A stretch of 33,160 bases of DNA from a virus, in the IMG/VR virus record IMGVR_UViG_3300030118_002622, positions 1-33,160 of that record; one strand, 5' to 3'. Of this stretch, positions 1,038 through 33,160 are shown piece after piece. Under the pieces are notes generated by a model that saw nothing but the letters and a program-made list of their open reading frames with translations, did not search any database and had not been told where the DNA came from. Position numbers and translations under genes: made by a program. Each line of letters starts with the position of its first letter. The stretch's first letter is position 1.

Positions 1038-3610
1038 TAGTAAGCGACCTCCAAAACCATACCGTTTAATTGTAAATCCAATGGTGCAGACTGAGATATT
1101 GTAACTTGCGGATCTCTGCTATAACCGAATACAAAAAATTCTTTCTTGCCTGTAAAAGACGATCTGTCTATCGAAAAATCATCAGTAACATTTCTAATAA
1201 GCATATCTGTACCATCAACAGATACAGATAATGTATCAAATAAATCTAATATTACAGATGCAATTCGACGTTGCTTACCAGTTAAAGGGCCACTTGCAAG
1301 CCTACCATCAACAGGCAATGTGACAAGTTGAGGTGTAAATGCATATCCAACAAATGCAGTTTTGACAGTATTATCAACAGCGGAAACATTTACTTGAGCA
1401 GAGCCGATAGTATATTCACCAAGGTAATCTGTACCGCTAACAACCTTCACAACAGCACCATTCTCAAAGTCTGTGTTAAGTCCTGACAATACTCCACCTG
1501 TGCCATTATATACATTGCAATGGTCCATTGGCATGGTGTTATTAAATTCTTCTAAATAAAACTTACTCGTTCCTGTGCCATCATCACGAACGACAACAGT
1601 AAAAAGCCTTTCTCCAACGGAACAAATACTTTGAAACAATCCATTAGTATCCCACAATGACCAACCAGCCTTTTTATCTGCTCGCAACGAGTAAAACACA
1701 GCTATTGTGCCATCCTTGTTTACATAAAATGCATAGCTTTCTGGTTTATTTAGAGCGCCCTTTATCAGGCTTTGCTGCAATGGGTTTCTTATAAGATGTG
1801 GAGATAATGTTGATATATTTGTTGCAACATATGCACCTTCAGTATCTGAGAATATATATTCTCTTATTGCACTTTCTGTTTTTTGCACAAAGAGAGTTGC
1901 GCCATCAAAAGGTGCAGGTCTTACAAATGATGACCCAAACGGAGTCTGTCGTTTGACTTGCGCTGTTGTTGGTGTTACAGGAGCATTGGAAAATGAAGGT
2001 ACAAAAAACTCTGAGTCACTAGTAAATACTTGTAAATCACGATTTGAAACCATGTGACGAATCTGATCAAACGAACCAACATTTGCAGATATATCTATTG
2101 CCTCGTCATCCTGCCCATCACCTAAACTAAAATTAAAAAAGTTATTACTATGAGACGCCCAGATTCCAGAGGGTTGAGCAAGAGAACCAGCAAACCATAA
2201 ACGCCCTTCATGAAAAGTTACACAACTTGGATACCCTCTTAGAGATGAGTATGACTGTTCTTCCCATTGGGTTGTTGCTGCTCCTGTTTCTATTCTTGGA
2301 GATCCCCCACCAACAGTACTAACTGTTGCAGCAGCTCCTGCATTAATTTCATATACATTTTCATTACGAACAGTTTGAACTGTTCTAGTGCCATTTATAT
2401 TACCAGCTGTAATGCCGCCAACACCTGATGCCCTTGAGATTGTAATTGACGCATTTGGAGCCAAACCATGCAATGCATGAGTAATAAGAATCCTGCTAGA
2501 GCCAGATATAGTTTCAATAGCATCTATATCAAGCTGTTCTCGTATTCTACCACTTATATTCCCTGTTGCAGTTGTAGCATTTGAAACAGCTGTAATAGTT
2601 ATTTCTGCTCCATGCATTCTTAGTTTTGTACCAACATGACCAGAAACAAAGTAGTCAGCACTTGTAGTCAAAGTCGTACCGTTACCATTAGTAAGGCTAC
2701 TAGTTAAAGTCTCCCCAGTACCTTGAAAACTAAAGTATGGCTGTTGAATACGTTGGCCATCTGTTGAAACCTCAAACTCAAATGGGTTCACAACAAAGCT
2801 CTCAAGACCTGTTCTTACAAGTTTTAATATTGGATACAGCTGGTGAGTAATAAACATAACATCAGCTTGTTGAGCAAACTGTAATTCAATAACTTTTGTT
2901 TGAGTAAATGGTAATGCTGTACCAGCTGAATCTTGCGTTATTGTAGATACTTTTTTTGGATTAAAGTTATTTGTTGGATCTAGAAGAAATGCTTCTATCT
3001 GACCAGCGCTAAACGCAATGATATATCTTTCATCATCACTAAAAATAAATGGTTCAATTCTTACCTGTAATGGATTTGATGAAAAGTTTGTAACAGCGAG
3101 GCGTGTTGCATCTTGTGTGATTACATTAAGGTTCATTGAACCATGATCATCACGTGTAACAGTAATTACATTTGCAGCAGGATTTGCAACTGTTAAACCA
3201 GTAACTGCATTTAATGCAGCCTGTATATTATCAGCGGTTGTATTGTTATCTGTAAACGGCCTGAAAAAATGATTGTTTCCAACTGACGCACTTGGCGCAT
3301 CAGCAGAACTTGTTTCTGATGTTAATGTTATTGTAGTTCCATCATTTAAATTAAGAGTAATTACTGTGCCAACAACAATATTAGCATAATCTGTAACTGT
3401 TATTGTACATGTTGGCTTTGTGTATGTGTTTGTAAATGTATGCCAGTTTTGTGTGCCGCTACGCTTTTCAACGCCACCTTCAGATTTGATAAAAAAGTTT
3501 CTTATCTTTGCAGCAGCTGCATTATAAACAGATACATCAGTACGAGATGTTAATGACGGACTAACTTCTCCAAATTCGAAGCTAGAAAGCGGAACTCTGA
3601 GCCTTGCCAT
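1037..3610 (-). CDS. Tail tubular protein B (nozzle, T7 gp12-like)
   Basis: The product is 857 aa, close to the usual size of podoviral tail tubular protein B. The N-terminus (FEFGEVSPSLTSRTDVSVY, then a FFIKSEGGVEKRSGT stretch) is the typical opening of this family: a statement that the mesh of chains is symmetric and the 'GG..KRpGT' signature. Later it has HEGRLWFAGS near the middle, a common nozzle-protein motif. It forms the hexameric nozzle at the end of the short tail. It starts at an ATG overlapping the stop of tail tubular protein A and is followed by the internal virion proteins, the order seen in T7-like phages. The extra 130-250 region looks like an inserted beta-rich domain (TITVTDYANIVVGT and following). 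Confidence 0.92.
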   Translation of the reverse strand: MARLRVPLSSFEFGEVSPSLTSRTDVSVYNAAAAKIRNFFIKSEGGVEKRSGTQNWHTFTNTYTKPTCTITVTDYANIVVGTVITLNLNDGTTITLTSETSSADAPSASVGNNHFFRPFTDNNTTADNIQAALNAVTGLTVANPAANVITVTRDDHGSMNLNVITQDATRLAVTNFSSNPLQVRIEPFIFSDDERYIIAFSAGQIEAFLLDPTNNFNPKKVSTITQDSAGTALPFTQTKVIELQFAQQADVMFITHQLYPILKLVRTGLESFVVNPFEFEVSTDGQRIQQPYFSFQGTGETLTSSLTNGNGTTLTTSADYFVSGHVGTKLRMHGAEITITAVSNATTATGNISGRIREQLDIDAIETISGSSRILITHALHGLAPNASITISRASGVGGITAGNINGTRTVQTVRNENVYEINAGAAATVSTVGGGSPRIETGAATTQWEEQSYSSLRGYPSCVTFHEGRLWFAGSLAQPSGIWASHSNNFFNFSLGDGQDDEAIDISANVGSFDQIRHMVSNRDLQVFTSDSEFFVPSFSNAPVTPTTAQVKRQTPFGSSFVRPAPFDGATLFVQKTESAIREYIFSDTEGAYVATNISTLSPHLIRNPLQQSLIKGALNKPESYAFYVNKDGTIAVFYSLRADKKAGWSLWDTNGLFQSICSVGERLFTVVVRDDGTGTSKFYLEEFNNTMPMDHCNVYNGTGGVLSGLNTDFENGAVVKVVSGTDYLGEYTIGSAQVNVSAVDNTVKTAFVGYAFTPQLVTLPVDGRLASGPLTGKQRRIASVILDLFDTLSVSVDGTDMLIRNVTDDFSIDRSSFTGKKEFFVFGYSRDPQVTISQSAPLDLQLNGMVLEVAY

Positions 3611-4194
3611 TAACTCAACCTTTCAGTCCTAAACCTATTCGTAACAAGCTTTCTTGTTGTTTGCTGTTGACTGTCAAGTGTACGAGCCTTTGCCATAAGT
3701 CGTTCTGCTTTTTGCTCCATCGCATTGGCTAGCCCATCATCTCTTGCTATAGAAGTAGCAAAGATAGCAGCAAGTTGATATTCAACAGCTAATGTAAAAT
3801 ATGAAGGCCATGATGTTTCATTTGCACGGAATGTAAAATCAGCAACTAGTTCATCAGATGTTGAAGAGTTTGAAAAAACCTTATCGCCATAAATTGAGTA
3901 TTGAATCAACAAATCGCTCACAGTAATAGCATGAACCATCAAAGTATCTACAGGGAGCTGATGAGCAACATCAAATCGACCAGTTGGTACATCTGATAAC
4001 TGATTCAAAACAGCTTGATTAGTAGAAAACCGCCAACGAGTTTGGCACAAAGATGCTTGAGCAACATCTTCATACATGTTGTTTGCAATTTGAGCCTCTG
4101 TACTTGTTTCAGAAAAAGATGAAATCGGATTCGCACCGATCAATGTGAGAGCGCGAGCCGATATATCTACTGCTGAATTAGCTGCTTGTGACAT
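3610..4194 (-). CDS. Tail tubular protein A (adaptor, T7 gp11-like)
   Basis: The product is 194 aa, matching T7 gp11 (196 aa) in length. It begins with the family pattern: ALTLIGANPISSF, then NMYEDVAQASLCQTRWRFST. The rest is mainly helical, with a basic C-terminus (TRKLVTNRFRTERLS). Twelve copies join the portal to the nozzle in the T7-type tail. It lies immediately before tail tubular protein B and after the small head protein and capsid genes, as expected. The start is the ATG at 4194, with about 40 non-coding bases between it and the preceding gene. Confidence 0.92.
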   Translation of the reverse strand: MSQAANSAVDISARALTLIGANPISSFSETSTEAQIANNMYEDVAQASLCQTRWRFSTNQAVLNQLSDVPTGRFDVAHQLPVDTLMVHAITVSDLLIQYSIYGDKVFSNSSTSDELVADFTFRANETSWPSYFTLAVEYQLAAIFATSIARDDGLANAMEQKAERLMAKARTLDSQQQTTRKLVTNRFRTERLS

Positions 4195-4236
4195 ACTTTA
4201 GATAGAGGGAGAGGCTTATGCCCCTCCCCACATCCT

Positions 4237-4500
4237 TTAGTCGGTGTCAGTCATTGTCAATGCTGTACCATCAGCAATGTCAACAACAGAACCTGTGTTA
4301 GATAACACAACAGAGATGCCCATTGTTGGCGCATCACTGTCGTAAACAAAAATAACATCGCCAACATTTAACATGCCAGCAGCGTCATTAAAGTATCCAG
4401 ATACACGAACAGCGGTCAGTGCGTCAGTCGAATCATAGAACCAAAGGCTATGACCGCCACCACCTGCCATACGAGTAAGACCTGCGGAAGAATATGCCAT
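4237..4500 (-). CDS. Small head-associated protein, 87 aa
   Basis: The product is 87 aa, with the opening MAYSSAGLTRMAGGGGHSLW, then a YDSTDALTAVRVSGYF segment and DVIFVYDSD. This is a recurrent small phage protein found directly downstream of the major capsid gene in many podovirus and siphovirus genomes. I know it only as a presumed head decoration or minor capsid protein, and no direct function is established for it here. Acidic residues dominate the C-terminus (VDIADGTALTMTDTD). It starts at an ATG 11 bases after the capsid stop. Confidence 0.75.
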   Translation of the reverse strand: MAYSSAGLTRMAGGGGHSLWFYDSTDALTAVRVSGYFNDAAGMLNVGDVIFVYDSDAPTMGISVVLSNTGSVVDIADGTALTMTDTD

Positions 4501-4511
4501 GATCTAACTCC

Positions 4512-5324
4512 TTATGTGTTATTATCTAAGACTTCATAAACACCATTGTCGTCAATAACAACAGCGCCCATGCTCATCGCAGATACGGTTAAGTGGGACA
4601 CTTTCTCAGGAACATAGTTCACTTCAGTAGATACATCGGAGTTAATTCCAAGACCTACTGCCATATTGTGATAAGCCATATTCTTACCAGCTGTAACAGC
4701 TGATGTTGAGAAAATCTGGAAGCCAAGGAATTGCTTCATGGTCATTCCACCAGCGAACGGAAGATTCTGCTCACCAACATAATCTGATGAAGCAAACTCT
4801 TCAATCAGGAATAAATCAGCAAAGCCCTTTGGATGCATTGCAAGATAACGCTGACCATCTTCTGGAACATTGGCTGTGCCAAATGTTTCAAACAATGTCA
4901 ACAAATCTGCCTTACCCAAAGCAGAGTTAGTATCATGAATTTGGGTGCTGTTAGCACCTGCATCCATAGCTGTGTAGATAATCTCATCAGTCTTTCGACC
5001 AAGAGCAGCAGCAGCAGAAGTAGCAACAGCTTGACGCTCATCAATATTTATCTTGAGTTCATCGAGTTTATCAATGTACTCAGCTGCATAATGATCTGTC
5101 ATTGTTACTTCTACAGTGGTGTGTGTTAGCTCCATAGGAGTAACATTACCGTTTCTTGATTTAGTCGAAGCAGAACCAGCACCGATTTTCTGGAAACGAG
5201 CAACACTCGCACTCACATTATTATTGCGAATGGTATTCTTTAGTTTTGAACCCATACGCTGATAAGCCATGTGAACTTCGGTTTCGAACTGCTTGATAAA
5301 TGCGACATCAATTGTACTCGCCAT
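4512..5324 (-). CDS. Major capsid protein
   Basis: The product is 270 aa and lies between the scaffold/gp13-like genes and the tail tubular genes, where the capsid protein belongs. An N-terminal helix (IKQFETEVHMAYQRMGSKLK) is followed by a beta-rich core and a conserved-looking AMHPKGFADLFLIEEF segment. The C-terminal half (LGFQIFSTSAVTAG, AYHNMAVGLGI) fits the HK97-fold P and A domains. It is shorter than T7 gp10A (about 345 aa). The 82-nt leader (5325-5406) has a ribosome site AAGGA nine bases before the ATG and, on the minus strand, a TATAGT (5358-5353) that could be a -10 box, but no matching -35 is obvious. A late motif lies about 140 bp upstream at 5462-5470. Confidence 0.88.
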   Translation of the reverse strand: MASTIDVAFIKQFETEVHMAYQRMGSKLKNTIRNNNVSASVARFQKIGAGSASTKSRNGNVTPMELTHTTVEVTMTDHYAAEYIDKLDELKINIDERQAVATSAAAALGRKTDEIIYTAMDAGANSTQIHDTNSALGKADLLTLFETFGTANVPEDGQRYLAMHPKGFADLFLIEEFASSDYVGEQNLPFAGGMTMKQFLGFQIFSTSAVTAGKNMAYHNMAVGLGINSDVSTEVNYVPEKVSHLTVSAMSMGAVVIDDNGVYEVLDNNT

Positions 5325-5406
5325 TTTATCAGTTCCTTACAAAGTTAAAGTTACTATACGTCAGGTTGTCCATTTCGCTCGTCATCCAGTTATCCATAAA
5401 GGGCTG

Positions 5407-5958
5407 TCAGTTAGAAATAGGCCATTCATCATTCTGGAATGACACTATTAAATGTGGAGCGCAACGCACAAATCTTACACAGGGGAATCCATTTATGAGA
5501 GTTTCCTGTTGGGCAAACATACATTTAGCAAACTTTAGCCAACGTATTGTTTTTTTATGGTCAACAGGAACAATGTTTTCAAGCACATCATATGTGTTTT
5601 GAAAGTAATCAAACACAGATTCAGTAAGACGAAGCCATGTTTTAGAATGTTTATCCAACTCATAACTGCCAAGCAACCATATAGAACCAGTTGCAATCCC
5701 ATTATTCTTAGATATTGGAACAGTTCCAAACATACATATAGTTTCGTCATTCTGATCTAAAACAGAAAATGTTTCAGCTTTTGGTATCGATAAAGGCAGA
5801 TGCAACGCCCTCCAAGGCGTTGACCCACCTATCATACATTCTCTCAAATCAGTGCTGCGTAACTTGTGTTGCAATTCTCCAGCATGAGATTCATTAGCTG
5901 GAACAATCGCCAAATTGTCATACAGCCCCTTGCCTATAAAGTTTAGCAAATCCATCAT
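5407..5958 (-). CDS. T7 gp13-like protein (DUF2833, GNAT-like fold)
   Basis: The product is 183 aa. The C-terminal half has the pattern of T7 gp13: a helix around TWLRLTESVFDYFQNTYDVL, then ENIVPVDHKKTIRWLKFAKC, which parallels 'NYVWVGNTSHIRFLKTIGA' of T7. That family (DUF2833) has a GNAT acetyltransferase-like fold, and in T7 the protein is needed for morphogenesis and is found in trace amounts in virions. Here the gene lies between scaffold and capsid instead of after the tail genes. Its start overlaps the scaffold gene by 41 nt, and two consecutive ATGs are available (5958 and 5955). The last third of the gene carries a late motif (5462-5470) that may drive the capsid gene. A perfect 7-bp inverted repeat (CAACGCC/GGCGTTG) lies at about 5803-5822 inside the gene. 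Confidence 0.72.
   Translation of the reverse strand: MMDLLNFIGKGLYDNLAIVPANESHAGELQHKLRSTDLRECMIGGSTPWRALHLPLSIPKAETFSVLDQNDETICMFGTVPISKNNGIATGSIWLLGSYELDKHSKTWLRLTESVFDYFQNTYDVLENIVPVDHKKTIRWLKFAKCMFAQQETLINGFPCVRFVRCAPHLIVSFQNDEWPISN
5462..5470 (-). promoter_or_regulatory. Late motif TGTGCGTTG, copy E (upstream of capsid gene)
   Basis: The minus strand reads ATTTGTGCGTTG, identical over these 12 bases to copy D at 8701-8709 with its flank. It lies inside the gp13-like gene, about 140 bp ahead of the capsid start. It is the only one of the five copies that lies within a gene. A role in boosting capsid transcription is inferred. Confidence 0.5.
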
Positions 5959-6646
5959 TCACCTGTTGTACAAATCCTGCATCACGTGATCCCTGTTTCC
6001 AATAACGCGGATCTTGCATCATTGACTTTAGATCATCTTCCGTAATACCTGATTGTGTTTCAGCTGAACCATTTATACTAGAACCTTTAAGTGCTTCCAT
6101 AACTTTCTCTAACACTTCGATGCCTTCTGAAGTTTGCCCAAGGCGCTCTAATGCACCCATTTGGCCTTCATCAAAAAACTTATTTGCCCAAAGTTGAACG
6201 GCCTCAATACGAGCATCCGCATTTTCACCAAGCTTTTCTCTTTCTGAATCAAGATCAGGAATAGCCTCTTGTATAGCTGACGCATATTTAGCAATGCCAT
6301 CAGCAAACTTGTCTTGACCATAACCGTGTTCAAAACAAAACTCCGACCACCAATGTAATAGCTCATTATCAACCGCTTGAGATTCATCAATGATTTCTGG
6401 CAAAACATAGTCACCAGATGTCTCTGGCCTATCTTTCACAGACTCTGCAAGTATTTCTTGCTTCACAGTCTCTCGTATTTCATCTTGGCCTTTGCCTAAT
6501 TTAGTTTCTAATGCTGAATACGATGACACAAGATCTTCTGGTGACTTAAATTTTTCTGGAAGCCACTCTGGTCTTTCATCCACCACAGGTGCTTCCGCAG
6601 AAATCATAGAGGTTTCTGTTTCTACATTATCTGTAACTTCATTCAT
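5918..6646 (-). CDS. Scaffolding / capsid assembly protein
   Basis: The product is 242 aa, strongly acidic and helical, with the PEWLPEKFKSPEDLVSSYSA opening found in podoviral scaffolds (T7 gp9 type: 'WLPEKF.s.EdL..aY..LE'). The C-terminus (DPRYWKQGSRDAGFVQQVND, then GFAKLYRQ) is the usual basic capsid-binding tail: 'DPRYW....rDp.fv..V...f..lY'. It assembles inside the procapsid and leaves before or during packaging. It overlaps the preceding 85-aa gene by 4 nt (ATGA-type) and the gp13-like gene by 41 nt. Confidence 0.9.
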   Translation of the reverse strand: MNEVTDNVETETSMISAEAPVVDERPEWLPEKFKSPEDLVSSYSALETKLGKGQDEIRETVKQEILAESVKDRPETSGDYVLPEIIDESQAVDNELLHWWSEFCFEHGYGQDKFADGIAKYASAIQEAIPDLDSEREKLGENADARIEAVQLWANKFFDEGQMGALERLGQTSEGIEVLEKVMEALKGSSINGSAETQSGITEDDLKSMMQDPRYWKQGSRDAGFVQQVNDGFAKLYRQGAV

Positions 6647-6900
6647 TTGCTTTTAACCTTTTGTCCATGAGTAATGCGGCGCTCTAAAAGCCCGACTAAA
6701 TATCGCTGACCCTCCATATGACGGAGTTCAGCATCACTTACATTCGGCCCATTGACAGCTTCAATAGTTATCGAACGTAAATACTTTAATACAGATTCAC
6801 CAGATGGATTTGCAAAAAGCGCAGCAACATCCAAAGAGATGCGCTTTTCAGCTTCTGCATCTCTGGCAAACCCATCTAAGCCAATAAATGGTTTTGTCAT
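6643..6900 (-). CDS. Bbp19-like small head protein
   Basis: The product is 85 aa: ALFANPSGESVLKYLRSITI early on, then HMEGQRYLVGLLERRITHG. This resembles the Bbp19 family first named from Bordetella phage BPP-1: 'F.t..Gk.VL..L...' followed by a 'GrR.l...I...i' helix. The gene lies between portal and scaffold in that phage group too. Its role is not known to me. The ATG at 6900 overlaps the portal stop by one base, and its own stop overlaps the scaffold start. Confidence 0.7.
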   Translation of the reverse strand: MTKPFIGLDGFARDAEAEKRISLDVAALFANPSGESVLKYLRSITIEAVNGPNVSDAELRHMEGQRYLVGLLERRITHGQKVKSK

Positions 6901-8435
6901 TATTGTTCCTGTTGTGGAGCCATGCCTTGTGATTGTGCTGCCATTTGTTGCATAGCTTGAGCGAGTGCCGCACGTTCATGCGAATCGCGTATTAAGTTAT
7001 CTGGCACACCAAATTTCTTGGCAAGAAAAGCGGATGCCTCCTCTGACGATACAAGGAGGTTTACCATTTGTGGGCCAAATCGTCCACCAACCATTTCTAA
7101 AAACCTATCAACAGCTGCAATATCTTGATTAGCTTGCGCTTGCGCGAGAGGCGAAACAGATCGTATTTTTACATCTCTTCCATTCAATGTAGGTACATCG
7201 ATGCGCCCCTGTTTCTTTAAAATATAAACAACACGCTGTAAAACAGGCTGAACAAATTCTGCTTGCAACCTACCAAACGCAGAACCAATGCGGCGTGATA
7301 AATCAGCCATACGTTCTGCAACTTCAGTTGCAGTTGCTGGGGTTTTATTAGGATCTCCCAACATATCATTATATAACGCACGTTTAATATTATTACGCAT
7401 ATCACCGAGAATGAGATTCGCAACATCAAAAGAACCAGCAGCGCGAATAGGTTGCAATCCTGCACTGTTAGGTGATTTTGGAATTATTGTGCCAGGGACT
7501 AGGTTGATTGAGTCAGTGTTAATCACGCCATCATCATCCATTTGATAGATGCCTGATATAGCCATCTGTGCATTTTCAAGAACTAATTCGATAGTCAGGT
7601 TTGTAGTTTTAATTGCACTGAGGCTGTTGACCAAAGGGCCGCGTCCATAAACTTCACCAGCTGCTTTTGACCAACGAAAACAAACAAAAGGATTTGATCC
7701 AGCACCTTTAAAGGTATCTTGATGGATCAACTCTCTAGTATCTTTGCAGATTACAAAGTATGCATTTTGTTCTTCATTTGGCTTGTCATAAATGCGGCAA
7801 ACAACTTCAAGCATGTTTGCTTTATTATCTGGCTCTTTTAGGATTTTATCCATGAGCATTTCAGAAACAACGGCATCAGGATATGCAATTAATATATCGC
7901 TGTTGCGAATTTTGCGTTCTCTATACACATGGTCGATTCTATCATCTGCGCCATTTTCTAATACTAACTGAGGCAATGGGATTGCATTAAACCTGACAGG
8001 GTTTAAGGCATCACCCTCTTCAACCAAGAGACAGCCTGTTCCCACAGCAAGATCAAGGAATGCTTCGTGGGCCTCTTGTCCAAAATTACTGTTTTGCATA
8101 ATTTGAAAAACATATTCAGTGACCTCTTCAAGCTGATTATCAATAGCTTCAGTTTGATCACTTGGCACTTCACTACCAGCGACAAGATCAGCCCAACGCG
8201 CAAAGTTTGGGACAAGGCCAGATTGTAAACGTGATGCAAATTCTTGGACACCGACAACAGCAGTTTCGTCAAATATTCTATCATCACGTCTTTGGCCAGC
8301 TGCAAGTTGTGTAAAACCTTCTCTTTGAGGTAATGCATATTCATAACACTCATCAAATAATGATTCAAAATTTAGCCGATGAGAACGAGCTTTTTCATAT
8401 CGTTTAAGATATATTGAAGCAACTTTATCTTGCAT
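6900..8435 (-). CDS. Portal (head-to-tail connector) protein
   Basis: The product is 511 aa, the normal length for the T7 gp8 type connector (Head_tail_con family). It opens with a long helical segment (YLKRYEKARSHRLNFESLFD) ending in ECYEYALPQREGF, a well-conserved portal signature. PLVNSLSAIKTTN and the PNKTPATATEVAERM segment in the second half are also typical. The C-terminus is Gln/Met/Ala-rich (AQAMQQMAAQSQGMAPQQEQ). Twelve subunits form the DNA gate and bind the terminase. It overlaps its upstream neighbour by one base and its downstream neighbour by one base. Confidence 0.95.
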   Translation of the reverse strand: MQDKVASIYLKRYEKARSHRLNFESLFDECYEYALPQREGFTQLAAGQRRDDRIFDETAVVGVQEFASRLQSGLVPNFARWADLVAGSEVPSDQTEAIDNQLEEVTEYVFQIMQNSNFGQEAHEAFLDLAVGTGCLLVEEGDALNPVRFNAIPLPQLVLENGADDRIDHVYRERKIRNSDILIAYPDAVVSEMLMDKILKEPDNKANMLEVVCRIYDKPNEEQNAYFVICKDTRELIHQDTFKGAGSNPFVCFRWSKAAGEVYGRGPLVNSLSAIKTTNLTIELVLENAQMAISGIYQMDDDGVINTDSINLVPGTIIPKSPNSAGLQPIRAAGSFDVANLILGDMRNNIKRALYNDMLGDPNKTPATATEVAERMADLSRRIGSAFGRLQAEFVQPVLQRVVYILKKQGRIDVPTLNGRDVKIRSVSPLAQAQANQDIAAVDRFLEMVGGRFGPQMVNLLVSSEEASAFLAKKFGVPDNLIRDSHERAALAQAMQQMAAQSQGMAPQQEQ

Positions 8436-8650
8436 TATAGATACTCGTTATAAAAACCAATACCGCCACCACTTCCAGACAGAAGTGAATGTGTAGCACT
8501 ACCGCCCTTCTTCTTTGCCTTGACAGCCTTTTGCAAGTTCTGTTGCTTCATTTGCTTTGTTTCAGCCAACTCTTTTTCCATACGCTCTTTGCGTTCTGCT
8601 TCTACAGATGGGTCAGGTGCTGGTGGAGATGGTCTATTAAATATACACAT
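8435..8650 (-). CDS. Small terL-portal linker protein, 71 aa
   Basis: The product is 71 aa, with MCIFNRPSPPAPDPS at the N-terminus (proline-rich after a Cys), a charged helix, and a C-terminus SGSGGGIGFYNEYL. I recognise the layout 'MC.F..P..P.P...(K/R-rich)...LLtGSGGG.GyyN.yl' as a small protein that commonly lies between terminase and portal in podoviruses. Its function is unknown. It starts at an ATG with GAGG six bases upstream, about 50 nt after late motif D, and is thus probably the first gene of a promoter-proximal group including portal, scaffold and capsid. Confidence 0.7.
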   Translation of the reverse strand: MCIFNRPSPPAPDPSVEAERKERMEKELAETKQMKQQNLQKAVKAKKKGGSATHSLLSGSGGGIGFYNEYL

Positions 8651-8700
8651 AATAACCTCAATCGTTTCACTCTACATCTAAACTTACGAAAAAAGCAATA

Positions 8701-8709
8701 CAACGCACA
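8701..8709 (-). promoter_or_regulatory. Late motif TGTGCGTTG, copy D (before linker-portal genes)
   Basis: The motif lies directly after the terminase large-subunit stop: that TAA (8714-8712) is followed by TT and then TGTGCGTTG. It falls in one of the few true gaps of the late unit (8651-8711). The distance to the next ATG is 50 nt. A promoter or activator role is inferred from recurrence, orientation and position. Confidence 0.62.
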
Positions 8710-8711
8710 AA

Positions 8712-10226
8712 TTACATCCTCGCCCAAAGTCCTTGGCGACGTTGTTTTGGTTGGCGCGTGAACACATCAAAGTCTCTACGCGCTTGTATTACTGCCTGTG
8801 AGCCTTGATTACCTAGCACACCACGACCCTCGCCAGCACCTAGCATAAGATATTGAAGAGCGTCATGTATATGAGAGAACCTGTTTTTTTCTGGCCTGTC
8901 ATCATATCGCTCACCAGAAACCTGTATGCGTCTGTACTGATAGCCACCTTCGAAGCCTTTTATTATTTCTTTACAACGCGGGTCTATCAAAAAACCAGAT
9001 AACCCATCGACCATTCGATTAAGACTTGCACTAACAGATTCTAAACGCAAAGCAACATCATTGCTTGGCGCTGGCCTTGCTTTCAAACCTGCGCCACGCA
9101 ATATTTGAAATGGGGTTGATTCATCAGTCTGAGCGCGAAAATCACCAGAAGGATCGCCAAATATATTTATTTCACAGTTGTCATATTTAACAGCAAGCTC
9201 TTGCCGTAACAGTTCAGCAAACCTGACAATGCCCATATCAAACGCAACAATCTCTTGGAGTATAAGCCATCTACCTCTTACTTTTTGCCCAAAGACAGCG
9301 GCTGGTGTTAGCCCAAAGTCTAAGCCAATATAAACAGGCAAACCATCTGCAACAGGTATTTCTTCATCGGCTACATGCTGATCATATGAAAACATATTGT
9401 AGACAGGCTTGCCATCTTGTATCGCGCCAAGCCTATTCATTACATACACATCAATCCAGCTTTTGCCCTTACCTTGGATAAGGTTAGGATAATAACTATC
9501 CATCATATGTTTTTTGTTTTCTGCATTTTTATTTGTCTTGTATTTTAAAACATTACCCTCGTCATCTTTCTCTTCGACCATAGCGGATGGCTGTGTATAA
9601 AATTTCCAGTTGTCAGGCAGCACCATCATCTTCGCTTCTTCACGACTTATATAGTCTGGCATTGGTACTTCACCTGACATTATTGCCCACCAGTGATCTT
9701 CTTCTGGTGCATTAGTATCTGCAATAACACCTGTCCAACTTGGGCCACCTTCTCTCATTGATGGGTATCTGCCAACACGCATTGTACAAGCGTCAATGAT
9801 TGATTTGGGTATCTCCCTAGCCTCGTTTATCCAGATACCAGTTAGCTCTAGGGAGAGTAATTTTTTAACATCTTCTGGACGGTCGAGGGCTAGGAAGATT
9901 ACTTCAAGTTCCAAATCACCCTTACTGATATTATGAGTATATGGAACCGACCAACTAAACTTGCCCCATTCATTTTCTGGAAACCAATCAAGCCAAGTCT
10001 TTATTGTGGTTGTACGCAACTGAGGATTTGTATTTCTAATAATAGCCCATCGGCTCTTTCGTATTCCCTGTTCATTTTTTTGTTGCATCAAAGCTCGTCT
10101 AAAAACTTCGACACAACAACCAACAGACTTGCCAGAACCGACAGGCCCACGGATGCCACGAAAGAAGGTGTCATCTTTCATAAAGGCTTTGAGGACTTCC
10201 CCATCTGGTTTGTATTTAAATTTCAT
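8712..10226 (-). CDS. terL: Terminase large subunit (ATPase-nuclease)
   Basis: The product is 504 aa. The packaging ATPase has Walker A GPVGSGKS (residues 27-34) and a Walker B-type strand IWINEA (131-136) with the catalytic Glu135. The C-terminal RNase H-fold nuclease has Asp303 (IGLDFGL), Asp358 (NIFGDPSG) and Asp455 (HIHDALQYL), the three metal-binding aspartates of the family. Near the C-terminus it is arginine-rich (RQPKQRRQGLWARM). It cuts and pumps DNA into procapsids through the portal. It overlaps the upstream 65-aa gene by 11 nt. The small subunit is not adjacent but lies 3 kb upstream, separated by the small basic protein cassette. Confidence 0.96.
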   Translation of the reverse strand: MKFKYKPDGEVLKAFMKDDTFFRGIRGPVGSGKSVGCCVEVFRRALMQQKNEQGIRKSRWAIIRNTNPQLRTTTIKTWLDWFPENEWGKFSWSVPYTHNISKGDLELEVIFLALDRPEDVKKLLSLELTGIWINEAREIPKSIIDACTMRVGRYPSMREGGPSWTGVIADTNAPEEDHWWAIMSGEVPMPDYISREEAKMMVLPDNWKFYTQPSAMVEEKDDEGNVLKYKTNKNAENKKHMMDSYYPNLIQGKGKSWIDVYVMNRLGAIQDGKPVYNMFSYDQHVADEEIPVADGLPVYIGLDFGLTPAAVFGQKVRGRWLILQEIVAFDMGIVRFAELLRQELAVKYDNCEINIFGDPSGDFRAQTDESTPFQILRGAGLKARPAPSNDVALRLESVSASLNRMVDGLSGFLIDPRCKEIIKGFEGGYQYRRIQVSGERYDDRPEKNRFSHIHDALQYLMLGAGEGRGVLGNQGSQAVIQARRDFDVFTRQPKQRRQGLWARM

Positions 10227-23659: not shown

Positions 23660-24748
23660 TTAAAACTCCGCAACCAACTCTAAATAATATACCGCTTGCA
23701 CTGTTGCCGCACCACTGCCTGTCCTTTGCAACTGGGCATTTAAAGAACTTGTAGTAATGGTAAGCAAACTTAATGTCGTGTTGGTAGTGGTGGAACTTCC
23801 AGAGCTTGAATAATTTGAATTGGTGTATGGATTTGCGGTAGGGGCATCACGCATTGCTGGAAATGTAATAGAAACAGCCAAGTCTGGATTAGCTGATTGA
23901 ACAGCACTTGAATAAAATCGATGCCTCATAGATCCAAGGCGATTGTAATATCGTAGACATTTTGAAAGTGTCTCTGCGTATTCTTCTGGCTCTATATCCG
24001 TAGCTGTAGAGCCTGTCTCAAGTTGAATGCCAGTAATAAACCATTGATTTGCAGTATCATCCATACAGTTTACCTGATTTGGAGATGCGTAAATATTACC
24101 ACTATTATTAGAATCTGTTCCCCAAGAACCAACTGTAGAAGCTGCATGAAAATTTGATCCTGATGCTAGTGGCCATATAAGCTGGAGTCCTACATTTTCA
24201 TCGTCTTGCCATGTTCCACCAGTGTCCCCAGGAATTGTAATCGTCTTTCTTTCCCAAACATTTGCTACACTAACAGTAAACTCTTCAACGCGAGTGCGAC
24301 TTTGATCGCTATTCCTCAATGCCACAGAGTGCGTACCTGTTTTCGGTGACTTGATGTAAAAAGATAGAGTAACTGTTTTTGCCTGTGCTGTACCCCATCC
24401 CAAATGAGCAATAGTATAACCTTCCAATCGAGTGAGTAGACTATACAGATCTGAATTAGCTAATGAAGCGTCTGCTGTTGTAACATCAACCTTTAAGGAT
24501 TTTCGTAATGTTCCAATTGGCACACCGCTGTTTTGTGAAATAGTTACAGCACCAGCTCCAGTGTCATACCACTGCATTCTGTCTATAGTGTATGCAAGAT
24601 TGGCTACATTTGCGAATGATATGCCGCGTTGTGAAACATTCATACTCCCATTGATCACCATGTTTTTTCCTTGGGGAGTAGGTAAATCACTAATATCAGC
24701 AGTAGTTATACCGCCAGCTAAATCAGCAAAGTCTCTTGCTCTTGTCAT
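23660..24748 (-). CDS. Receptor-binding / carbohydrate-binding tail protein, 362 aa
   Basis: The product is 362 aa. Its N-terminus GKNMVINGSMNVSQRGISFA is the typical 'Nl..NG.m.v.QRG' opening of phage tail fibre tip and carbohydrate-binding modules. The rest is beta-rich and jelly-roll-like (TIDRMQWYDTGAGAVTISQN, TLSFYIKSPKTGTHSVALRN). It follows the main tail fibre and its chaperone and is probably a second receptor-binding protein. The ATG at 24748 has GAGGTGAGG just upstream; a TTG at 24781 would overlap the chaperone gene. The Ser/Thr-rich end suggests a variable tip. Confidence 0.78.
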   Translation of the reverse strand: MTRARDFADLAGGITTADISDLPTPQGKNMVINGSMNVSQRGISFANVANLAYTIDRMQWYDTGAGAVTISQNSGVPIGTLRKSLKVDVTTADASLANSDLYSLLTRLEGYTIAHLGWGTAQAKTVTLSFYIKSPKTGTHSVALRNSDQSRTRVEEFTVSVANVWERKTITIPGDTGGTWQDDENVGLQLIWPLASGSNFHAASTVGSWGTDSNNSGNIYASPNQVNCMDDTANQWFITGIQLETGSTATDIEPEEYAETLSKCLRYYNRLGSMRHRFYSSAVQSANPDLAVSITFPAMRDAPTANPYTNSNYSSSGSSTTTNTTLSLLTITTSSLNAQLQRTGSGAATVQAVYYLELVAEF

Positions 24749-27690: not shown

Positions 27691-30600
27691 TTAATCATCA
27701 TAAAAATCAGTAGCCAACGCAAAAATCGGTAATATTGGAGAGTTGTATTTAAACTCTCTTGCTGCTTCTGTGTCTTCGCCGTTCATGTAATGAGTAGCGC
27801 CTTTGATCCAAGACGCAACCATTCCAGGGGCCGCGCCAGCTGGTTCAGAAATAGCATCAAAGAAAGAGGGGTTATATTTAGGCTTCAATATTGAATCACG
27901 TTCATCAAGTAAGCCTGTGCCAATAGCAACATGTGTAGCGGTATAAGCTATATCGCCATATACACCAAAAATCCCAGACTGATCTACGGTACGTTGAAAG
28001 ATTTCTGCATCAGAACGCGCATCAAACCACCATCTGTCCTTTTTTAAATTAAGAGCTAAATAACCCAAGCCAAGCAATGCAAAAGCACCAGTAATGCGGT
28101 GTCTACGCATTGGGTCTGCCAAGCCGCCAGTTACACGTGCTGTTGCACCAAGCATAAAATTATAAAACTGGAAAGGAAATGTCATCAAACCAGACTCAAG
28201 ACGAACTAATGGGATTGTTTTTGATGATGCACGTTGATCAATGTCAGACTCACCAAAACCAATCTTCTTCATCCATGGTCTATATCGAACATAAACTGTG
28301 CCATCCATTATGCGTGGTTTATCAAAAGCTGTTGCATGAAGAACAGTATTGCCAATACCAGCATTCATAGCGGTATTCCATTTGCGTATTAACTCACGGT
28401 CTGCTTGAGTTTTATTAGGCCATTTATCAATATTAGGATGTAATATATGATCGCCTTTTTCATAGGGCAGCTGTGCCATAATTTTTGCATCACGTTCTGA
28501 TATGCCATATCGCAATAAATATCGCGCATCAGCTTCATCGATAGTGTTGTTAGCCATTCTGACAACTTTATCCATCAGATCACTAGCACGAAACGATCCA
28601 TCAATCTGTTTAAATATATAAGTAAGAGTGCCAAGGCCATTACCAAGAATCGGTATATTGTAATAAGCTCTTGTTATTGGATTCAAAACCCGCTCTACAG
28701 CGGTAGGCTCAATTCCATCAATGTTATCAGCAATAATACGTTGCTGCACACCGCCTAGTGCCAGCTCAGTCGCTTCTCCAGTAGCAGGTATGAGCTTTCT
28801 ATTTTTACCAAGAAGGCTTCTATCAAGCTCTGTACGTGCGCCCATAAACATTTTCATAGGCCCACGTTCCATAACAAGCATTCCAGCATCAGTAACAGAG
28901 GCTAGTGCAGCTGCATCAAGATAGGAAATGCCAGCAGTTTCTTTAAGCAATCTAGCAGTTTGATTATCAAATCGTGATGGGTCTTTGATATGTTCACCCA
29001 TTACACGCTCGTACTCAAACGCCATGTCAGCACGAAGCGATACTATCTTTTTCTCAGCAAATCCTTTTTCACGCATTTCAAATTCAGCATCATCAAGAAT
29101 ATCATCGATGCTTTGATTGCCATACTTTCTTGCAAATTCAATACGCTTGCCAACTCTTGCAGCATAAGATCGTGCAACGCGCATATCCTTAATTATAAAG
29201 TCTTTTATCTTATATTCTGGTATTGCGATTTGTCTGTGACGTAAATGTTTGCCTTTAGGGATTCCACTCATTTCAACAACAAGCATCTGATCGCCCTCTT
29301 CCATGATGGACGCAACAGCATCTTCAGCAATCTTTCTTGGCTCCGCTCTTGTTGCTGGATCTACTTCTATAAACTTTTGCGCCTTATCATCCCAAAAGCT
29401 AACAACGGGATTGTTTTTAATATGCTCTTCAAAAATGTCTACAAGACGTTTACGCATATTATCATCAGCTGCAATAGCAGCTTTATCATAGTAAATAGGT
29501 AGTGTGTAATTATCTGTAATTGAGTTTTTAATAAGACCTTCATTAAACTCAACTTGCTTCCTCATAGATTCAAGGCGTTTTGCTTGACCAGCCGTTAGCC
29601 CACGCTCTGATTGCATACGCTCCATATATTCAATGTCCAACTGGATACGAGCATTCCTATCTTTCAAAGGCTGTACACTGGTTATGAGGTTAAGAGCTTC
29701 TAACTCATCTCTAAATTTTTCAAAGAATGTATCGATTTCAACCATTGCCTGTCTAAAGTCAGCAGAAAATGTTCCATCGTATTTTTTAAAACCTTGACCA
29801 GCCTGTTTAAGCAAACGAGCCTCATTAACAGCTGAATACCAATCTTCAAATGTTTTTGAATTTCTCCACTTAGCAACAATGTTATCTGTGTTGTAACCAA
29901 ATACACGTGTTGCAGCTCCCTTTGATCTACCAAGCTGGTCTTTTGCCCAAAGATCACGCATCACATTTACATGGGTAACGTATGTTCCAATGTGTGTTTC
30001 TGCTTGTTGGTGTACAGACTGTGTAGTTGCTTGCCCATTTGAAAGATTCTTTGTTGAAATATGTTCAACCCCAACCATACGATGCACAAAAACCTTCATA
30101 GAATTTGTGCCATTTTCTAATATACGTTTGCTAGGAGTTGTAAGCATCTTCCATGCTAATGACCTAGTAAGTGGAGTCTCTTCTAACTCAAGGCCGCTTC
30201 TAGAGCGATCTAGTGCTATTTTGTTAGTACGATCTACATATGCTGCCTCTGATTCACCTTTGACGCGTTTGTTTTGTGATCGGACAATAGAACGCATTAC
30301 TTGAAACTCACCCCATTCATCAGGAGTAAGGAAGTCTGTTTCTTTTAAAGGAGTGGCACCTTTAACTTCTGCGCGAATCCACGGACGTTGATCAAATTCA
30401 ATTGATAGTTGAGTATCATCAATTGTAATCTTTTTGTTCTTCGTGGTTATTGGTTGCTGTGGATTGCCTTTTAAAGCTATTTCATTAATAGCATTTTCAT
30501 AATCAGCAACACCTGTAGGTGATTTCTTATTTATTCCAAGATCAGATGGACGCACCATAGTATGAGCAATCTCATGATTACGTACAAAATTTACCCACTC

Positions 30601-31530
30601 GTCTGGAGTTTTAAAAGCATCTTTTGCAAGTGGTTTAACACCTTTAACTTTTGGCTTAGTCCAAGGCGCTTTATCAAATGTTGACTTGATGTACTCAGAA
30701 TCAATTTTAACAGTTTGTGTTTTTGAATTGTATAAAGCTGGAACATATCTTCCATTAACTGTCTTACCTGTATTGCCTTCTTCAATTTTTATTTTAGATG
30801 AAACAGGCAAACGGCTGTTATTATCACCACGCTCAATAGTAAATCCATCAATTTCTCTTTTAAGAGAAGATCGACCTTGAAACTGTGCGTTTCGCATAGA
30901 CTGAGTTTTACGTGCATAGTTATATCCAGCACGCGCAACAGATGGAATAGAACCAATAACGCCACCAAAAAATGTTGTTGCAAGTATATTTGATGCAACT
31001 TCTTCATCAGTAACTGTTTTGTCAAATGGCGCACGAATAGCCTCTGAGGCTACACCAGTAACAAATCCACCTCTAGCACTTGCCAATGCAGCCTGACGTA
31101 CAGTCATGCCACCTTTTGCTAACAAACCAAGTTGGCCGAAGATAGGTAAAGCAAAAACAATATTTAATGGATCAATCAAACTTGCAATGAGAACACCGCC
31201 ACTTGTAATGCCAGCACGTGTTAAAACATCTTTCTCAAATAAACGCTCATCAATATTTCGTTTGATATAATCTAAATGCTCCTGATCTTTAGCTCTTGCA
31301 ATCTGGCCTAAATATTCCTCATATCCTGCGGCTTGTGTGAATGGATCAAAATCTGGATCAAATGATCTGTTTCCAAAAACACTTTCTTCTTCAATTCGAT
31401 CAAGTAATGGGCTGTATTGATACGCAAATGTAGATTTAAATGCCTGACCAAATGTTGGAGCATCTAAAGGAGCATTAAGCAACCCAGTATCAAGCGGTGG
31501 AGTATACGCATTTTCCAGTGTAACTGGCAT
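27691..31530 (-). CDS. Very large internal virion protein, 1279 aa, with zinc-protease-like module
   Basis: The product is 1279 aa. By size and position it is the counterpart of T7 gp16, the largest ejected core protein. Residues 106-165 and 178-200 hold hydrophobic, Gly/Ala-rich stretches (ITSGGVLIASLIDPLNIVFA, LATTFFGGVIGSIPSVARAG) suited to membrane insertion. Residues 272-354 hold a module with HEIAH (319-323) and a downstream Glu350, resembling a zinc metallopeptidase. Residues 366-440 repeat the module without those residues. The rest is helical and charged. I see no transglycosylase motif of the T7 gp16 N-terminus. The start overlaps the 714-aa gene's stop (ATG at 31530). Confidence 0.82.
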   Translation of the reverse strand: MPVTLENAYTPPLDTGLLNAPLDAPTFGQAFKSTFAYQYSPLLDRIEEESVFGNRSFDPDFDPFTQAAGYEEYLGQIARAKDQEHLDYIKRNIDERLFEKDVLTRAGITSGGVLIASLIDPLNIVFALPIFGQLGLLAKGGMTVRQAALASARGGFVTGVASEAIRAPFDKTVTDEEVASNILATTFFGGVIGSIPSVARAGYNYARKTQSMRNAQFQGRSSLKREIDGFTIERGDNNSRLPVSSKIKIEEGNTGKTVNGRYVPALYNSKTQTVKIDSEYIKSTFDKAPWTKPKVKGVKPLAKDAFKTPDEWVNFVRNHEIAHTMVRPSDLGINKKSPTGVADYENAINEIALKGNPQQPITTKNKKITIDDTQLSIEFDQRPWIRAEVKGATPLKETDFLTPDEWGEFQVMRSIVRSQNKRVKGESEAAYVDRTNKIALDRSRSGLELEETPLTRSLAWKMLTTPSKRILENGTNSMKVFVHRMVGVEHISTKNLSNGQATTQSVHQQAETHIGTYVTHVNVMRDLWAKDQLGRSKGAATRVFGYNTDNIVAKWRNSKTFEDWYSAVNEARLLKQAGQGFKKYDGTFSADFRQAMVEIDTFFEKFRDELEALNLITSVQPLKDRNARIQLDIEYMERMQSERGLTAGQAKRLESMRKQVEFNEGLIKNSITDNYTLPIYYDKAAIAADDNMRKRLVDIFEEHIKNNPVVSFWDDKAQKFIEVDPATRAEPRKIAEDAVASIMEEGDQMLVVEMSGIPKGKHLRHRQIAIPEYKIKDFIIKDMRVARSYAARVGKRIEFARKYGNQSIDDILDDAEFEMREKGFAEKKIVSLRADMAFEYERVMGEHIKDPSRFDNQTARLLKETAGISYLDAAALASVTDAGMLVMERGPMKMFMGARTELDRSLLGKNRKLIPATGEATELALGGVQQRIIADNIDGIEPTAVERVLNPITRAYYNIPILGNGLGTLTYIFKQIDGSFRASDLMDKVVRMANNTIDEADARYLLRYGISERDAKIMAQLPYEKGDHILHPNIDKWPNKTQADRELIRKWNTAMNAGIGNTVLHATAFDKPRIMDGTVYVRYRPWMKKIGFGESDIDQRASSKTIPLVRLESGLMTFPFQFYNFMLGATARVTGGLADPMRRHRITGAFALLGLGYLALNLKKDRWWFDARSDAEIFQRTVDQSGIFGVYGDIAYTATHVAIGTGLLDERDSILKPKYNPSFFDAISEPAGAAPGMVASWIKGATHYMNGEDTEAAREFKYNSPILPIFALATDFYDD
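30211..30435 (-). repeat. Module copy 2 in 1279-aa protein (active-site residues lost)
   Basis: Residues 366-440: KITIDDTQLSIEFDQRPWIR, AEVKGATPLKETDFLTPDEW, GEFQVMRSIVRSQNK and ending TNKIAL. In the alignment FVRNHEIAH becomes FQVMRSIVR, so both His and the Glu are replaced, and NEIAL becomes NKIAL. The scaffold residues are kept, as in a pseudo-enzyme copy. Confidence 0.72.
30469..30717 (-). repeat. Module copy 1 in 1279-aa protein (HEIAH intact)
   Basis: Residues 272-354: KIDSEYIKSTFDKAPWTKPK, VKGVKPLAKDAFKTPDEWVN, FVRNHEIAHTMVR and ending AINEIAL. HExxH at 319-323 and Glu350 would supply the zinc ligands and general base. It matches copy 2 in the order I..FD..PW...VKG..PL....F.TPDEW..F, then N.IAL. 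Confidence 0.75.
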
Positions 31531-33160
31531 TATTCTTGATTCTTTCTGCGTCTAACTTCTTCACGTATGTCACTTATTGAAGGAGGTGACTGATTATCGA
31601 CAATTTTGCTTATCTGCATTTCACGTGTACGCAAATCACGTGCAGCATCTATTTTAGCTTGCATTGCTGCGCCAAACTTAGCAGCCATTGTTGAGTTCTG
31701 ATTGATCATTTGAGACTTAATATATATTGGGCCATTTGAGTTCATAATAGCGCTGCCATTTTGATCAAGAACTTGCCATGTAACAGAAGAGTTTGTGGAG
31801 TCAGGTGCTGGATATAAAAATGCATTATCGCCAAGTGTTAAACGTGGATTAGCTGTACGAATTTTCCTATTTGCCATTTCTTCAAATTGATCATAGATTT
31901 CACCGCTTGGGTAAAATCTTTCAGGAGCAAATTCAGAACGCTTCACACGTTTTGCGCCCATAATATTAGGAGTCATAATCAGACTTGTTGGAGCGTAAAT
32001 TGTTTCATAAGCAGTTTGTAAATATTCATCAGCTTCTTCTGGAGGCAAAGAAGCGTAAGCACGAATTGCTATAGTTTCCAAACGGCGTATTGCCGATGGA
32101 TTCATATCGTCAATTAAATCTTCTTCTATTATTCTATCTTTAATCTGGGCATATGCATCTTTATTAGGATTGCCTAAACGCCTACGCGCTTCATTTTGCA
32201 AATCTTCTCCAACAGTAGAGCCTTTCGTAATTGATGTTGCGTATTCATTGGCAGCGTCCATCCCATAAGATAGAGCATAATTATTCACATTTTTCCAAAA
32301 GGAATTAACTTCATTGGATAATTTAGCATTTACAACAGGGCCATCTTTTGTCATTCCCATAGAGCCTGTACCCCACAATGTAAGCAGGTTACTAAGTTCT
32401 TGTGTGGTTGTTGGTTTCCCAGAATAAACATTATTGAATGCTTTAACCATTGCGCTTGGAAAGACTTGACCATTACGTAAAAATTTACCCAAAGCAGAGT
32501 TCGGGTCTCGCGCTTGAGAAACCCCTGTATCACCTAAAATAGTTTCTGGGTCTAATCCACCAGCAGTAAAAAAGTCCTGCATATCATTTTCAGTTTTAGA
32601 GCCATTGCCAGCATGTAAGGCACCATTAACTTGATTCATAAATTCTGAGCGCAATAAAGAGTTCTTAGCGTCTTGGCTTTGTCTTGATGAATACTGGTTA
32701 GCAACTGTACGAATATCAGCAGCAATAATATCGCGTACTTGCGCGTCTTGAATCTCCGCTATTGTTTGATCGGTAATGCCTCTTGCAGAAAGAGCTTCTC
32801 TTAATGTTACTTCTTTACCGCCAACAACAACTTTCCTGTCTGGCTCTACAATCTGGTTGCCGCGATAGGACTCTGCCATTGCATCAAGCAAATCAAATTC
32901 ACCTGCGGCAATCATTTGATTCGCAACCATATCAGCTTGCTGACCATAAAACATTATATCAATAGATCTGACAGCGGCTTGTTGCTGGCTTAGATTACCG
33001 CCCATACTTATAATTCTGCCAGCCTCAATACGAGAGTTTTCCGCAAGCTGTTTAGCTTGCTCCATATCACCAGATAGAATTAAAGCTTGAATAGTATTTA
33101 CATTGTCTTGAATACCTAGCAGCTGATTAGTTATTGCAGCTGTTTCTTCATCTTTGATTT
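31530..33160 (-). CDS. Internal virion protein, 714 aa: C-terminal part (split by window ends)
   Basis: This is the continuation of the gene whose start is at 613. The frame stays open to the window edge, and the ATG at 33065 is internal (Met204 of the full protein), not the true start. This part is Asn/Gln/Ala-rich and helical, with DPETILGDTGVSQARDPNSA, NNYALSYGMDAANEYATSIT and SLPPEEADEYLQTAYETIYA. The C-terminus is charged (ISDIREEVRRRKNQE). No catalytic motif is recognised. It is probably an ejected internal core protein of the T7 gp15 type, between the 138-aa and 1279-aa internal proteins. Confidence 0.8.
   Translation of the reverse strand, partial: IKDEETAAITNQLLGIQDNVNTIQALILSGDMEQAKQLAENSRIEAGRIISMGGNLSQQQAAVRSIDIMFYGQQADMVANQMIAAGEFDLLDAMAESYRGNQIVEPDRKVVVGGKEVTLREALSARGITDQTIAEIQDAQVRDIIAADIRTVANQYSSRQSQDAKNSLLRSEFMNQVNGALHAGNGSKTENDMQDFFTAGGLDPETILGDTGVSQARDPNSALGKFLRNGQVFPSAMVKAFNNVYSGKPTTTQELSNLLTLWGTGSMGMTKDGPVVNAKLSNEVNSFWKNVNNYALSYGMDAANEYATSITKGSTVGEDLQNEARRRLGNPNKDAYAQIKDRIIEEDLIDDMNPSAIRRLETIAIRAYASLPPEEADEYLQTAYETIYAPTSLIMTPNIMGAKRVKRSEFAPERFYPSGEIYDQFEEMANRKIRTANPRLTLGDNAFLYPAPDSTNSSVTWQVLDQNGSAIMNSNGPIYIKSQMINQNSTMAAKFGAAMQAKIDAARDLRTREMQISKIVDNQSPPSISDIREEVRRRKNQE
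33063..33160. repeat. Terminal overlap, copy 2
   Basis: Identical to 2-99. Removing one copy gives a circle of about 33,061 bp. The base just before this copy is c (33062) while base 1 of the window is t; c gives Glu and t would give Lys at residue 205 of the internal virion protein. Confidence 0.9.

Follow-up and report, generated by a model that had tools for sequence, protein, structure and literature searches.

A Swappable, Probably Catalytic Zincin-like Cassette beside a Conserved Pseudo-enzyme Module in a T7 gp16-like Phage Ejection Protein

Introduction

The idea that ejected phage proteins carry metallopeptidase (MPTase) zincins with an HExxH motif is already known (Iyer et al. 2017, PMC5512222). 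The MPTase domains treated there, which belong to polyvalent proteins of phages and plasmids (PF18818), resemble the module analyzed here in being small, with HExxH and a Glu on the next helix, and in lying within large, virion-delivered multidomain proteins, where multiple copies in a single protein have been recorded; the text consulted makes no mention of inactive MPTase copies or of gp16-like carriers. At the sequence level, however, the module matched PF18818 (MPTase-PolyVal) above its cut-off in none of 21 records, the lone hit falling in another gene, and among 55 members of the module family only 4 gave a match, which was weak (E 0.019 at best). In the L037 record, at contig positions 24150–24533, a separate 303-aa frame matches PF18818 (E 2e-39), so that this virus codes for a recognised polyvalent zincin beside the module.

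The C1 domain of the N4 virion RNA polymerase (vRNAP; PMC12633501) is likewise of HExxH type and part of a giant phage protein that is ejected, and by eye it shares a hairpin-like stretch just ahead of the motif in the sequence, but a sequence relationship beyond the motif was not detected (no hmmsearch hit; hhalign aligned 11 columns only). For T7 gp16, TMH I has been placed at residues 243–410, and gp16-C (411–1118) has been modelled as cytoplasmic (PMC8954989). The gp16-like protein of Pelagibacter phage EXVC031P Hodr is homologous to the one described here and has one module at the same place, but that single module is degenerate, lacks HExxH and shows 24–25% identity. The Hodr record (L009; OQ414635) bears the name Hodr EXVC031P and the locus tags EXVC032PBaldr.

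Here, we analyzed a 33,160-nt stretch of marine phage DNA (IMG/VR record IMGVR_UViG_3300030118_002622), referred to as the window at its full length, which encodes a gp16-like protein with two copies of an HExxH-type module, one of them dead. Whereas zincins in ejected proteins are an established idea, the module family, its slot in gp16 and the pairing of a constant dead copy with an optional live copy, as deduced from sequence, were not found described in the open literature searched.

Results and Discussion

The Carrier Is a T7 gp16-like Protein

The original prediction placed the two copies in a virion protein, and this was borne out by the match of the carrier to phrog_342, a family whose profile covers T7 gp16 over its whole length, identifying it as a gp16-like internal virion protein. 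The carrier and its membrane region are located as follows.

27691..31530, minus strand: gp16-like internal virion (ejection) protein, 1279 aa (phrog_342 match, E 2.9e-36)
30919..31461, minus strand: region homologous to T7 gp16 TMH I, residues 24–204 (phrog_342 positions 222–408, E 6e-21)

The TMH I homologue contains the one stretch that is strongly hydrophobic by hydropathy (residues 107–144), and hhalign of residues 82–202 against T7 gp16 298–411 (E 8e-4) agreed with the assignment. The carrier's neighbours in the window are also T7-like, including a tail tubular protein, a capsid protein and a capsid assembly protein. The open frames at 2–613 and 31533–33158, both on the minus strand, run off the ends of the window; on a circular record, they would join in frame into a gp15-like gene of 747 codons. 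Unlike T7 gp16, the window protein is without the N-terminal transglycosylase and molecular-tape regions, the phrog_342 profile matching only from position 222–223, and it has two modules inserted after TMH I. By sequence homology, it can be classed with the T7 gp16-like ejection proteins, minus the transglycosylase domain. The N-terminal lytic transglycosylase is present in T7 gp16 and absent in P22-like homologues, and is thus not universal among gp16-like proteins.

Since residues 24–204 correspond to about T7 TMH I, the modules begin at the point where T7 gp16-C starts. Standing just behind this segment, they are predicted by analogy to lie on the cytoplasmic side, with the caveat that the topology of T7 gp16 has in part been modelled and that the window protein also lacks the periplasmic gp16-N. 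This placement bears on an improbable reading, in which the module would be a peptidoglycan peptidase that substitutes for the missing transglycosylase and cuts wall peptide cross-links during entry. The loss of the T7 transglycosylase region would fit such a role, as would the finding of no SLT domain (PF01464) in a profile search of the window record and the existence of one carrier (L015) that joins an SLT domain with the zincin module. A module behind the TMH I homologue, however, would be cytoplasmic by T7 topology; the close relatives without the module likewise gave no SLT match when their records were searched, and the same module is found at many positions in many kinds of large protein.

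One Copy Retains a Candidate Metal Site and the Other Has Lost It

The two copies and their diagnostic residues are as follows.

30466..30756, minus strand: copy 1, putative zincin module in the cassette slot, residues 259–355 (module family alignment; AF2)
30208..30447, minus strand: copy 2, pseudo-module, residues 362–441 (inactive-copy clade; predicted secondary structure the same as in copy 1)
30562..30576, minus strand: HEIAH, residues 319–323, with putative metal ligands His319 and His323 and putative base Glu320 (H, E and H invariant in 55 modules)
30496..30498, minus strand: Glu345 of the YEN motif, putative third ligand (invariant in 55 modules; on the second predicted helix)
30280..30294, minus strand: RSIVR, residues 413–417, replacing HEIAH (alignments A4 and A10)
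30235..30237, minus strand: Val432, replacing Glu345 in copy 2 (alignments A4 and A10)

Local alignment of copy 1 with copy 2 scored 123, whereas the best of 2000 shuffles reached 54 (z about 19), confirming that the 1279-aa protein holds two copies of one module, each about 80–97 aa in length. The span first assigned to them (30211–30717) slightly clips copy 1. As proposed, copy 2 has lost every active-site residue, which by the present alignment are H, E, H and Glu345; the residues aligned with HEIAH are RSIVR, one residue on from the MRSIV that had been named. The choice of the NEIAL Glu as the downstream ligand had to be abandoned, as this residue (Glu350) varies, whereas Glu345 is the invariant Glu across the 55 family members. 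The FD..PW..VKG..PL..F.TPDEW framework does occur in both copies, but it is the consensus of the whole viral module family.

The Module Family Is Widespread in Large Viral Proteins

A first pattern that included the active-site motif identified 15 viral contigs, while a second scan, using patterns for the W[TN]KP..G and FKT.E[WF] parts and ignoring the active site, yielded 76 loci in viral contigs; alignment A1 was too diverse for use in the collection scan. HExxH was kept in 53 of the 59 non-redundant modules from the active-site-blind scan. In the 55-module alignment, which comprises active-type modules and leaves out the dead copies, the invariant columns were His319, Glu320, His323 and Glu345, and both His residues are therefore conserved in relatives, as a catalytic copy 1 had been expected to show. 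HExxH and the second-helix Glu are among the most strictly kept residues of the family.

The carriers are large proteins, mostly of 1000–4000 aa, and 15 of the 29 scanned matched phrog_342; some are not gp16-like. Pfam and PHROG scans of the modules gave nothing convincing, and a profile search of PDB sequences with the module returned three chance-level hits only. A tblastn search of 50,697 phage records with six module queries found only the degenerate Hodr module, and no module or relative of it was found in the plasmids or in the bacterial and archaeal genome contigs searched. A degenerate module also accompanies an HExxH module, to all appearance independently of the pair in the window, in L036 (frame 3793–9300, plus strand; residues 639–723 and 727–821, the degenerate match being weak) and in L023 (frame 2437–9000, minus strand; residues 1335–1457 and 2060–2160). 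Scattered single modules in L062, L060 and L074 have partly or fully lost HExxH, as in HERAR and HEAEN.

The Predicted Fold Has a Gluzincin-like Arrangement

AF2 modelling of copy 1 from 55 sequences (pLDDT 95.2, pTM 0.85) predicted a beta hairpin followed by a helix with HEIAH (309–325) and a helix with Glu345 (340–354), the helices being H51–67 and H82–96 in model numbering. Thus, a metallopeptidase-like helix arrangement around HEIAH is present in the model, and by sequence and model copy 1 has the gluzincin order, in which the HExxH helix is followed by a helix with a conserved Glu. A tandem model of both copies was weaker (pLDDT 74, 8 sequences), with copy 2 showing the same strand and helix order as copy 1; alignment A9 was excluded from folding because it misplaced single modules between the two copies. 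Foldseek comparison of the copy 1 model, a very small domain, with the PDB gave no match at E <= 0.001, so that the case for a zincin fold is made from the motif and the order of the helices. Comparison with predicted viral proteins yielded five hits at a probability of 1.00, each to a protein of about 765–1325 aa.

HExxH together with a Glu can hold iron in non-proteases. Copy 1 might accordingly be a non-proteolytic metal domain, whose metal would either be structural or serve an oxygenase-like activity of the iron/2-oxoglutarate HExxH type, a reading that we consider rather unlikely. The alphaKG-HExxH enzymes also have HExxH, a possibility raised for the N4 vRNAP (PMC12633501), and the model matched no solved peptidase fold; the strict conservation of the HExxH Glu and the next-helix Glu, however, is the gluzincin arrangement.

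The Dead Copy Is Constant and the Slot Before It Is Variable

The inactive copies of the window and of L005, L006, L003, L105, L108, L087 and L096 form one clade (support 100/97). Scanning with copy 2 brought in more relatives, and all of those read have the inactive module. Copy 2 thus belongs to an all-inactive, well-supported clade retained across this gp16 lineage. The slot before it is occupied by a zincin in four proteins (window, L005, L087 and L096), by a coiled coil in L006, L105/L129 and, in shorter form, L124/L125, and is empty in L003, L123, L127, L132 and L136. At least 5 changes are required to account for these states on the protein tree, part of which is unsure at depth because Hodr, L136 and L132 lie on long branches. 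Between the window and L006, DNA identity drops from about 0.8 to 0.25–0.42 over the length of the slot and is back at about 0.8 in copy 2, showing slot exchange directly.

This history differs from simple duplication and decay, and the expected picture, in which the protease was primary and the pseudo-copy derived, is reversed in the relatives, where the pseudo-copy is constant and the catalytic copy optional. A recent tandem duplication was rejected, because copy 1 is 31% identical to copy 2 but 40–52% identical to many modules of other phages; copy 2 also belongs to an old clade. The dN/dS of copy 1 between the window and L005 was 0.013, with synonymous change as high as in the neighbouring parts, and that of copy 2 from the window was 0.044 to L005, 0.109 to L006 and 0.131 to L003, all of these values being rough as dS is near saturation. 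Both copies are under purifying selection. That both are purely structural, with copy 1 inactive too, is very improbable: a coiled coil can indeed fill the slot instead, but the catalytic residues are the best kept across 55 divergent modules, and the low dN/dS of copy 1 also speaks against it.

The relatives bear equally on the possibility of a self-processing protease, in which copy 1 would cut its own polypeptide or partner core proteins during assembly or ejection, with copy 2 as the docking site. The two modules are adjacent in the chain, and autoprocessing is proposed for virion zincins by Iyer et al. 2017 (PMC5512222). On the other hand, relatives without the active copy retain the rest of the protein intact, so that processing by the module is not essential to its core function, and the same study reports that the N4 vRNAP, with its HExxH domain, is packaged unprocessed. 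We therefore regard self-processing as unlikely, though less so than the non-proteolytic reading.

Proposed Role of the Cassette

That related phages retain the inactive copy but differ in whether they have the active one points to an injected enzyme that can be swapped, next to a structural part. We give about an even chance to the full proposal of a gp16-like ejection protein with an exchangeable slot that holds an active metallopeptidase, copy 1, next to a dead structural or binding copy 2. The slot would lie directly after the first membrane segment and would be filled here by the small zincin-like copy 1, with HEIAH and Glu345 as its metal site. Once ejected, copy 1 would come out on the cytoplasmic side of the host's inner membrane, where its substrate may be a host protein or else the ejectosome, while copy 2 would be an old, catalytically dead paralogue retained by the gp16 lineage. 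We infer the metal binding, proteolysis, ejection, topology and substrate of copy 1 from its sequence, the predicted model and the analogy with T7. A more specific version is tentative: a gp16-like cargo slot just inside the inner membrane, held by a dead protease fold, in which cassettes (zincin, coiled coil or nothing) are swapped and from which a host-targeting protease might be delivered by the ejection channel. For copy 1 itself, the most likely identity is that of a small metallopeptidase that enters together with the DNA, and the pair is best read as a cassette, swappable and probably catalytic, beside a conserved pseudo-enzyme scaffold.

These results define a viral HExxH module family, without a confident Pfam, PHROGs or PDB match, that is widespread in giant virion proteins of uncultured viruses, and its putative enzyme domain, at 97 aa, is small enough to test by expression. 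They also reveal an exchangeable position in a DNA-ejection protein, where catalytic content can be acquired or lost next to a dead paralogue that persists. Should the active copy prove to be a protease, phages that infect abundant marine bacteria may bring a proteolytic enzyme with them as they enter.
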